Assembly (NCBI RefSeq): GCF_003633715.1 | Contig: NZ_RBIE01000001.1 | Span: 124,001-188,000, forward strand | DNA: 64,000 nt | From: Thermovibrio guaymasensis | Lineage (GTDB): Bacteria > Aquificota > Aquificia > Desulfurobacteriales > Desulfurobacteriaceae | Direction of reading: 5' to 3' | In this document: positions 45,225 through 48,623 of the stretch, piece by piece | How positions within the stretch are numbered: the first letter of the stretch is position 1 | Layout: every line of letters starts with the position of its first letter | The notes under the pieces: generated by a model | What the model saw: the letters and a program-made list of their open reading frames with translations, nothing else | What the model was told of the DNA's origin: nothing | Databases searched by the model: none | Position numbers and translations under genes: made by a program

Positions 45225-45797
45225 GTGCCTTCAATAGATGTAAACCAGATTGCAAAGGGAATGAAGCTTGAAATTGAAGGAGCTCCATACGAAATAATTG
45301 ATTATCAACACGTTAAACCTGGTAAAGGTCAGGCTTTCGCTAGGATAAAGCTTAAAAACTTAAAAACCGGTAACGTTGTTGAGAAGACGTACAAAGTCGG
45401 TGAAAAACTTGAACTTGCCGATTTTGAAGAGAGGGAAATGGAGTACATCTACAACGATGGTCAGTTTTACTACTTTATGGACTCCAAAACCTACGAGCAG
45501 GTAGGGGTTCCGGCTGCTTCTCTAGGCGATAAAGCAAAGTTCCTTAAAGAGAACACAACAGTGATGGTTCAGTTTTACAAAGGAGAAGCTATCTCCGTTA
45601 AACTTCCAAAGAGTATAGTCCTTCAGGTTGTTGATACAGAGCCGGGCTTTAAGGGAGACACTGTAAGTAACGTTACAAAACCGGCAACCCTTGAGACTGG
45701 GGCTGTAATTCAAGTTCCTATGTTCATTAACCCCGGTGATATGGTTAGGGTTAATCCCGAGACAGGAGAGTACATAGAGAGGGTTAACGTTAAGTAG
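45225..45797 (+). CDS. efp: elongation factor P
   Basis: Relieves ribosome stalling at polyproline. KOW-like domain I with loop HVKPGKGQAF: Lys34 is the tip residue that is modified in some bacteria. GDTVSNVTKPATLETGA is the family signature. 190 aa. GTG start with AAAGGAGG. Heads the conserved efp-accB-accC cluster. No modification enzyme gene in the window. Confidence 0.97.
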   Translation: MPSIDVNQIAKGMKLEIEGAPYEIIDYQHVKPGKGQAFARIKLKNLKTGNVVEKTYKVGEKLELADFEEREMEYIYNDGQFYYFMDSKTYEQVGVPAASLGDKAKFLKENTTVMVQFYKGEAISVKLPKSIVLQVVDTEPGFKGDTVSNVTKPATLETGAVIQVPMFINPGDMVRVNPETGEYIERVNVK

Positions 45798-45806
45798 GAG
45801 GGTATT

Positions 45807-46235
45807 TTGATTGAGAAAATAAAAGAGCTCCTTAAAAGCCTTGAAAATACTTCTTTGGAAGAGATAGAGCTTGAAGCTGAGGGCTTTAAGTTAAAAGCTA
45901 AGTTTAAAAGGGAAGGTTTTTCGGTTTCTCCTTCCCAGATTCCTCCTTCCCAACCTTCAACTTCTGAGGAGGAAGTTAAAGAGCCTGAGGAAGAGTATTT
46001 CGTTGTTGAGTCTCCCATGGTGGGTACTTTCTATAGAGCTCCTGCTCCCGGAGCTGAGCCTTTCGTTAAAGAGGGAGATTACGTTGAGAAGGGACAGACT
46101 CTTTGCATAATTGAGGCCCTGAAGGTTATGAACGAGATTGAGTCTGAAGTTTCCGGAGTTGTTAAGAAAATCCTGGTTGAAAACGGTCAGCCTGTAGAGT
46201 ACGGCCAGCCCCTTTTCTACATTGAACCGAGGTAG
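45807..46235 (+). CDS. accB: biotin carboxyl carrier protein of acetyl-CoA carboxylase
   Basis: Carries biotin on Lys106 in [13 protein letters not shown] within the C-terminal hammerhead domain ([20 protein letters not shown] upstream). A Pro/Ser linker joins it to an N-terminal helical region. TTG start after GGAGGG. Three bases separate it from accC. Confidence 0.96.
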
Positions 46236-46238
46236 TGG

Positions 46239-47582
46239 ATGTTTAAGAAAGTTCTCATAGCAAACAGGGGAGAAATAGCTGTAAGGATAATAAGAACATG
46301 CAGAGAGCTTGGAATAAAGACAGTTGCCGTTTACTCCAAGGCAGATAAAGACTCTCTTCACGTCTACCTTGCAGATGAGGCAATTTGCATAGGCGGTCCT
46401 CTACCTCAGGAGAGTTACTTAAACATTCCTGCAATAATTGCTGCTGCGGAGCTAACGGGTGCAGATGCGATTCACCCCGGTTACGGTTTCCTATCTGAAA
46501 ATCCAGGGTTTGCAGAAATCTGCAGTGCCTGCGGTATAAAGTTCATTGGCCCTTCACCTGAAACTATGGTATTGATGGGAGATAAGGCTAAAGCAAGGGA
46601 CGTTGCCCTTAAGGCTGGAATTCCGGTAGTTCCGGGAAGCGGAATAGTAAAGAACGTTCAGGAGGGACTTGCCTTCCTTAAAGAGATAGGCTTTCCGGCT
46701 CTAGTTAAAGCTGCCCACGGTGGCGGGGGCAGGGGAATGAGGTTGATAGAGGGGGAAGAGGAGGCTGAGAACCTCATAGTTACTGCTATGGCTGAAGCTG
46801 AAGCGGCCTTTGGAAGTGGGGAGGTCTATATTGAGAAGTACATTGAAGAGCCTAGACATATTGAGGTTCAGATTATTGCAGATTCCTACGGAAATGTAGT
46901 AACATTTGGAGAGCGTGAGTGCTCCCTTCAAAGGAGACATCAGAAGGTTTTAGAGGAGTCGCCTTCTCCCTTTGTTAGTGAAAGTTTAAGGCAGGAGCTC
47001 TCTAAAGCTGCAGTTAAACTTGCCGAGTATATAAACTATGAAGGGGCAGGAACGGTAGAGTTTCTCGTTGATAAGAACGGAAATTTCTACTTCATTGAGA
47101 TGAACACTAGAATTCAAGTAGAACATCCAGTTACAGAAATGGTTTCTGGAAAAGACTTAATTGCTCTTCAAATTTCTGCTGCAGCAGGGGAGAAACTTGA
47201 TTTAAATCAAGTTAATTTGAACGGCCATGCAATAGAATTTAGAATAAACTGTGAGGACTACGAAAAAGAATTTAGGCCTACTCCAGGTAAGATTGAAAAA
47301 CTCCTAATCCCTGGAGGTTTCGGAGTTAGGGTAGATACTTACGTTTATGAAGGATACTCAGTTCCCATTTACTACGACTCCCTTTTGGGAAAACTGATAG
47401 TTTGGGGAGAAACTAGGGAAGAGGCCATAAAGAGGGGAAGGAGGGCCCTATCGGAGTTTGTTATAGGTGGAAACTTAAAGACAATTATTCCCCTTCACCA
47501 GAAAATTTTGGAGAGTGAACCTTTCTTAAAAGGGACTTATAACACTAAAACTTTAGAGCGGGAAATTCTTAAGTCTTCTTAA
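46239..47582 (+). CDS. accC: biotin carboxylase subunit AccC
   Basis: ATP-dependent carboxylation of biotin. ATP-grasp protein: [44 protein letters not shown] (Gly-rich loop), [14 protein letters not shown] and [17 protein letters not shown]. 447 aa. A pyruvate carboxylase subunit would share these motifs, but the adjacent accB makes acetyl-CoA carboxylase the better call. Confidence 0.96.
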
Positions 47583-47616
47583 AGTATGTTTTTAACCGGT
47601 TATCGGAGGAAATAGT

Positions 47617-48120
47617 ATGGCTCAGACAAAATCGGATAAGGTTAAAACCTGGTTAAAGGAGTATATCTCTGAGTTTGGAGAATATAGTGGAACTATAGAG
47701 GAGCTCTCTCAACTAGCAGGGGCCTCTCCCTACCTTATAAAGAAGGTACTCGGCGAGCTTGAGGAGGAAGGTTTCCTTAAGTCTGAAACTAGAAGAGGCA
47801 AGGGATTACTCATAACTCTTGCCCAAAGACAGGAACAGGAGGAGAAGGAAGAAGTAGAGGAGTCTCCAAAGGAGGAGCCGGTGAGCGAGGAGAAAGTTGA
47901 GGAGAAAAAGAGTGAGAAGAAGGAAAAGGAAAAGAAGAAGTCCCTTCAGGATCAGGTACTCTCTTCCCTCCTTGGAAAACCGGTTACAGTTTTCCTCATA
48001 AGCGGAACAAGGCTTGAAGGAGTTCTCCTTGATTACGATAACTTTACCCTTGCGATGACGGCTCCTAAAGGTAAGTCTCTCGTTTATAAACACGCTATTG
48101 CAACAATTCTCTTTGAGTAG
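47617..48120 (+). CDS. winged-helix–Hfq fusion protein 1
   Basis: Residues 1-70 are a winged-helix domain (TIEELSQLAGASPYLIKKVL as recognition region, LEEEGFLKSETRRGKGLLI as wing). Residues 71-107 are an extreme Glu/Lys linker. Residues 108-167 are a complete Hfq-type Sm domain: LQDQVLSSLLGKPVTVFLIS with the Gln-Asp of the proximal face, NFTLAM, and the Sm2 signature VYKHAIATI. Standard Hfq has no N-terminal DNA-binding-like domain. GGAGG before the ATG. The next gene is a divergent paralog, nine bases on. Confidence 0.82.
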   Translation: MAQTKSDKVKTWLKEYISEFGEYSGTIEELSQLAGASPYLIKKVLGELEEEGFLKSETRRGKGLLITLAQRQEQEEKEEVEESPKEEPVSEEKVEEKKSEKKEKEKKKSLQDQVLSSLLGKPVTVFLISGTRLEGVLLDYDNFTLAMTAPKGKSLVYKHAIATILFE

Positions 48121-48128
48121 GTTTTGAA

Positions 48129-48623
48129 ATGAAAAGGTATAAGACCTTAGAGGAAGCACAAATAGAACTGATAGAGCTCCTTGAGGAAAAGGGAGAGTTT
48201 CGGGGAACCCTGGATGAACTTGCTGAAGTTCTATCCGTTCGCCCTGAGAACGTAAGGCCTCTCCTTCAGCTTTTAAAGTCTTCTGGGGATATAATTTACG
48301 AGGAAGTAGATGATGAGCTTATAGTTAGACCGGCAATGATGATTCCTGCACTTCCTCCCCTCCTTACCCCTTCCCAGCAGAAGGAAGTAGAAGAGAAGTT
48401 AAAGGAAGGCTACAAGGTGGTTGCCTGTTCAACTATGGGGGGAGTTCAAAGTAGGGAACTCAGGAGCATGTTAGGTAAAAGGATTATTGTTTACTTTAGG
48501 AACGGAAGTAAGGTTGAAGCTAAGCTTAAAGGCTTTGATAGGTTCTGTTTGAAGTTAAAGAACTACATGGGGAACATACTAGCCTATAAGCATGCCATAT
48601 CAACTATAGTTTATAAGCCTTAG
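48129..48623 (+). CDS. winged-helix–Hfq fusion protein 2 (paralog)
   Basis: Same architecture as its upstream neighbour. It has a winged-helix domain at residues 8-66 (TLDELAEVLSVRPENVRPLL), a Pro-rich linker (PALPPLLTPSQQ) and a C-terminal Sm domain from about residue 105. LRSMLGKRIIVYFRNGSKVE, RFCLKL and AYKHAISTIVYK show the Hfq fold with an intact Sm2 motif. The Gln-Asp of the Hfq N-terminus is replaced (SRELRS), so sRNA 3'-end binding may differ. Tandem duplication followed by divergence is the simplest origin. Confidence 0.78.
   Translation: MKRYKTLEEAQIELIELLEEKGEFRGTLDELAEVLSVRPENVRPLLQLLKSSGDIIYEEVDDELIVRPAMMIPALPPLLTPSQQKEVEEKLKEGYKVVACSTMGGVQSRELRSMLGKRIIVYFRNGSKVEAKLKGFDRFCLKLKNYMGNILAYKHAISTIVYKP

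Follow-up and report, generated by a model that had tools for sequence, protein, structure and literature searches.

The window, that is, the whole 64,000-nucleotide stretch of Thermovibrio guaymasensis DNA that was analysed, contained two adjacent genes on the forward strand, here called A and B, which were separated by a gap of 8 bases. The two genes, their domains and the genes in front of them were located as follows.

45225-47582, forward strand: efp-accB-accC, immediately 5' of A-B (NCBIfam efp, BCCP and accC)
47617-48120, forward strand: gene A, 167 aa; winged-helix domain approximately 4-68, linker approximately 69-107, Hfq domain 108-167
47617-47820, forward strand: winged-helix domain of A; AlphaFold2 elements H5-20, E22-25, H27-34, H38-51, E54-59 and E63-68
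47938-48117, forward strand: Hfq/Sm domain of A; Q8, D9, F42, Y55, K56 and H57 kept (E. coli numbering), without rim R16/R17/R19
48129-48623, forward strand: gene B, 164 aa; winged-helix domain 1-68, linker 69-106, Hfq domain 107-164
48129-48332, forward strand: winged-helix domain of B; acidic, with a family mean net charge of -7.3
48447-48620, forward strand: Hfq/Sm domain of B; mean net charge approximately +10.6; Q8 kept; D9 to S, N13 to R, V27 to R and Q41 to R invariant in the family

The first-pass annotation had described this pair as tandem genes fusing a winged helix to an Hfq domain. Both open reading frames were found as it had placed them, and Pfam, AlphaFold2 and Foldseek concurred on the architecture. 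The AlphaFold2 models, built from 22-23 orthologs, showed for each protein the H-E-H-H-E-E elements of a winged helix and, after them, the helix and five strands of an Sm fold, and the top Foldseek matches of both models were Hfq chains. The monomer pTM was low (0.38 and 0.50), so that the models do not fix the arrangement of the domains. The linker of A was charged and K/E-rich, varied from 25 to 49 aa among orthologs and was modelled at low confidence, with residues 72-105 predicted as unstructured. The linker of B was partly structured in the model, with one helix and one strand, and it ended in a conserved GGVQSR. The block around this motif, in front of the Sm domain (48405-48464, B residues 93-112) was nearly invariant in the family.

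The C-terminal domains matched the Pfam Hfq profile PF17209 with 54.2 bits over residues 110-165 for A and 40.9 bits over residues 118-161 for B, both above the curated cut-off of 27 bits, and the assignment to Hfq by HMM was thus upheld. PDB sequence matches of both proteins were also Hfq structures. Scores against the NCBIfam Hfq equivalog TIGR02383 (56.0 for A and 38.3 for B) were below its cut-off of 61.7, which makes both proteins outliers among Hfqs. Within the family of the window, the residues Q8, D9, F42, Y55, K56 and H57 (E. coli Hfq numbering) were kept in 21 of 21 A proteins and F39 in 20, in agreement with the claim that the first paralog retains the proximal Gln-Asp. In B, Q8, K56 and H57 were present in 20/20 sequences and Y55 in 19/20 (one F), position 42 was F or Y, and D9 was replaced by S and each of N13, V27 and Q41 by R in all 20. 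The claim that the second paralog had lost Gln-Asp therefore held for Asp9 but not for Gln8, which is invariant and becomes visible once a 2-residue deletion common to A and B is aligned.

The basic rim patch R16/R17/R19 was deleted or replaced in both proteins. The net charge of the Sm core was approximately 0 in A and about +10.6 in B. For comparison, the core of E. coli Hfq has +3, and among the stand-alone Hfqs of Aquificota the longer ones carry +5.7 and the shorter ones -1. Overall, the proposed divergence of the two paralogs was supported. The Hfq domain was the most conserved part of A within the family, with a mean pairwise identity of 0.88 against 0.72 for its winged helix; the value for canonical Hfq was 0.83 (six sequences). 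From the conserved residues we infer that the proximal pocket of A binds RNA.

Matches of the N-terminal domains to winged-helix families were individually weak, so that this assignment rests on the models together with many weak matches. The best on the A side was GntR at 1.9e-6 (one A ortholog), and the B domain matched HVO_A0114 (7.6e-5), TFIIE-alpha and PafC weakly. Positions 42 and 43 in the recognition helix and 59, 60 and 62 in the wing of A were K or R in 90% or more of all 23 orthologs, among them those of the sister family. The net charge of the A winged helix was approximately 0, so that nucleic-acid binding by A is not certain, and that of B averaged -7.3 with an acidic wing as well. 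Judged from these residues, contact of the A winged helix with DNA or structured RNA is plausible, whereas nucleic-acid binding by that of B is unlikely. The earlier suggestion that both proteins may bind DNA can thus be kept for A and not for B.

Of the 22 genomes in the window's family (7 genera), 20 carried the tandem. The two remaining genomes were incomplete: one carried A at a contig end and the other, 62% complete, had neither gene. In the sister family of the same order, the tandem was found in both genomes (n=2), where it was recognisable by the A winged helix. The Sm-like domains of this family were strongly diverged and scored below the Hfq cut-offs, with the Y-K-H signature changed to D-K-N in A and to Y-K-D or Y-K-N in B. 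Most Hfq RNA-binding residues were lost there and the pair was still kept, so that RNA binding of the Hfq type may not be the essential function of the pair. No other or canonical Hfq was detected in the two sister-family genomes (G113, G114; one 95% complete) with the Pfam profile or the Hfq of the window genome as query.

The first-pass annotation had also raised the questions of whether a separate hfq exists and how far the architecture extends across Aquificota. A stand-alone canonical hfq was identified behind miaA in the same genome as A-B (99 bits; 95.5 bits against TIGR02383), and A and B are therefore additions and not replacements. Among the genomes sampled, the architecture was seen in the window's family and its sister family only, with no full-length homolog of A or B in other Aquificota families. 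Likewise, none was found in about 255 genomes outside Aquificota or in further, partly overlapping sets (several hundred in all), nor was any such homolog found on plasmids (query A), in phages (query B) or in IMG/VR; these searches are samples with limited sensitivity, and absence elsewhere is not thereby proven. A scan of genome contigs gave a close relative, a Desulfurobacteriaceae MAG, as the sole match. Three genomes of other phyla had long open frames around Hfq, which were considered as signs of a wider spread; they proved to be ordinary Hfqs, either with a lengthy C-terminal tail or extended upstream by chance.

A and B were homologous from end to end (hhalign probability 99.5%, E 3.6e-22), and their winged helices alone aligned at 93.9%. 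The full-length homology and the common 2-residue deletion, which takes out the rim arginine stretch, support an origin by one winged-helix-Hfq fusion followed by tandem duplication. The Hfq domains of A and B from the window's family formed one clade apart from the stand-alone Hfqs. Each of the two families has A as well as B, which supports a duplication older than their divergence. Which stand-alone Aquificota Hfq was the source of the fused domain was not settled by the tree, which had 67 columns and placed the long branches of the sister family inconsistently. Where computable, dN/dS was 0.02-0.09 in A and in B, values that indicate purifying selection but are rough because some dS were near or beyond saturation. 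They show that the open reading frames are not due to chance and ruled out a pair of decaying paralogs.

The spacing between A and B was -23 to +15 bases in every genome with both genes, and stop and start codons often overlapped; the open reading frames were taken from the first start, and the overlap may be overstated. Directly upstream, efp-accB-accC was found in the window and in 6/6 other family members inspected, with which A-B probably shares a transcript, and the downstream gene varied. In the sister family, A-B was located between rpe and a gene for a T4 Rnl1-type RNA ligase. A perfect 10-base palindrome, TAACCGGTTA, was present at 47593-47602, immediately in front of the A ribosome-binding site. 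It was not conserved in other genomes, and a conserved operator in front of A was rejected.

Hfq is described as a stand-alone homohexamer that varies mainly in its C-terminal tail. A and B share the Sm sequence and fold with canonical Hfq (PF17209; E. coli Hfq and Aquifex aeolicus Hfq, 5szd); A has the proximal U-binding residues, and K56 and H57 are present in both. They differ from it by the N-terminal winged helix, the tandem paralogy, the lack of a C-terminal tail to speak of, the deleted rim arginines and, in B, the extreme positive charge. A second comparison is with the double-Hfq proteins (NCBIfam NF010691 / PRK14091), also non-canonical Hfq products of similar length. That model has 176 positions and appears to hold two Hfq units, of which A matched 5-80 and B 116-159. 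A and B scored 49.2 and 23.2 bits against a cut-off of 270 and contain one Hfq domain each. To our knowledge, Bacillus anthracis Hfq1-3 and Burkholderia cenocepacia hfq2 are paralogs without a winged helix. In the accessible text of the two reports, these species are examples of several divergent Hfqs per cell (PMC5348863, PMC3474761), and no tandem winged-helix pair is described there. The word 'paralog' does not occur in the paper on the Aquifex aeolicus Hfq structure.

The nearest precedent by architecture, at the level of the fold, is PafB/PafC. These two HTH-WYL regulators are adjacent paralogs that each combine a winged helix at the N terminus with an Sm fold, and PafBC is a heterodimer (PMC6789036). 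Neither A nor B is a WYL protein: their Sm domain is Hfq by sequence, they lack a WYL match and the WCX ferredoxin-like domain, and each chain stops no more than a few residues after the Sm domain. In the open literature, which leaves most subscription journals and preprints outside its coverage, no winged-helix-Hfq family was found described or named. The statement that no precedent was known is accordingly retained for pairs with a bona fide Hfq domain and has to be qualified by the winged-helix and Sm-fold WYL pair PafB/PafC (PMC6789036).

The constant pairing of A and B strongly suggests that they are produced together and function jointly. A hetero-oligomer is plausible for proteins that appear co-translated, always paired and of opposite charge pattern. 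Our tentative preference is for a co-made, probably mixed Hfq-like ring with winged-helix arms, which would serve as a specialised chaperone of RNA while being anchored to a further nucleic acid or complex. What the analysis shows is the architecture, the duplication, the pairing, the conservation and the patterns of charge and residues; we infer the ring, its mixed composition, its ligands and its role, the ring itself by homology to Hfq. A and B would be made together, probably from one message, and their Hfq domains would assemble into the ring, most likely with each other, with the winged-helix arms leaving on the N-terminal, proximal-face side. A would supply an intact uridine-binding proximal pocket, and its winged helix, with basic helix and wing, would probably touch DNA or structured RNA. 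B would provide the positive charge of the ring, compensating for the absent rim arginines. Its acidic winged helix may fold back on the ring, where it would compete with RNA as an intrinsic part of the complex, or may bind a protein partner. The first option is suggested by analogy with the acidic tails of Hfq: it is an established mechanism that such tails mimic RNA and dock on the basic rim (PMC6561178). The whole complex would work beside canonical Hfq.

The order of conservation was reversed between the two families. The A winged helix, which varied more than the Hfq domain within the window's family, was the best-kept part across both families (48% compared with 21% for the A Sm domain). 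Either the ancestral task lay with the winged helix and Hfq chemistry is important in one family only, or the sister family changed its ligand. Because of this reversal, a regulator of the PafBC type has to be taken as a serious rival, although we consider it somewhat improbable. A and B would then form a heterodimer or small oligomer in which the A winged helix, or both winged helices, bind promoters, and the Sm domains would sense RNA or another ligand without an annealing ring. In PafBC, the Sm2 loop of such a paralogous pair was proposed as the binding site of a nucleic-acid ligand (PMC6789036), and HTH_PafC was one of the commonest Pfam matches of the B winged helix, although a weak one (10/16 members, best 0.0011). 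The acidic winged helix of B does not fit such a role, no WYL match was obtained in Pfam up to an E value of 10, no WCX domain follows the Sm domain, and the full proximal pocket in 21/21 A proteins is as expected of a real Hfq ring.

It is unlikely that A and B instead build one homohexamer each, as distinct Hfq variants whose arms bind proteins, without DNA contact or a mixed ring, and that each recruits its own partner, for example RNA polymerase, a nuclease or the ribosome. Winged helices are often used for protein-protein contacts, canonical Hfq is a homohexamer, and the acidic B and near-neutral A arms would suit such a function. However, the strict pairing of A and B wherever both are present suggests joint work, and the conserved basic helix and wing columns in A suggest nucleic-acid contact. 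Also doubtful is a stronger form of the mixed ring, in which site-specific DNA-binding arms would couple small-RNA binding to transcription at chosen promoters and make the pair an RNA-gated transcription factor of one bacterial order. Autoregulation of the pair's own efp-accB-accC operon would agree with its fixed position in the seven family members but is very improbable given the different neighbours in the sister family and the unconserved palindrome TAACCGGTTA.

A-B represents an old Hfq pair under selection, whose members bear folded arms at the N terminus and have divided their labour. Should a mixed ring form, it would represent in bacteria what the hetero-oligomeric Sm/LSm rings are in eukaryotes, and if the A arm binds DNA, RNA chaperoning would be linked to transcription. 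Thermophile proteins such as A and B usually express and crystallise well.

Most other Aquificota (L097-L106, L113) had two stand-alone Hfqs and no fusion. The short one, of approximately 62-75 aa, was usually encoded right before hflX-like genes and in two genomes was preceded by miaA, and the longer one was encoded elsewhere. A link between A-B and the RNA ligase was rejected, the two being adjacent in the sister family only, on different contigs in the window's genome, and the ligase being absent from several well-assembled family members. In the sister family, the ligase gene overlapped the end of B (L095:6296-7447, L096:84-1235). Finally, a ligase of the same family was encoded at other places in the window's family, in 13 of its 22 genomes, including G000:C3:15950.
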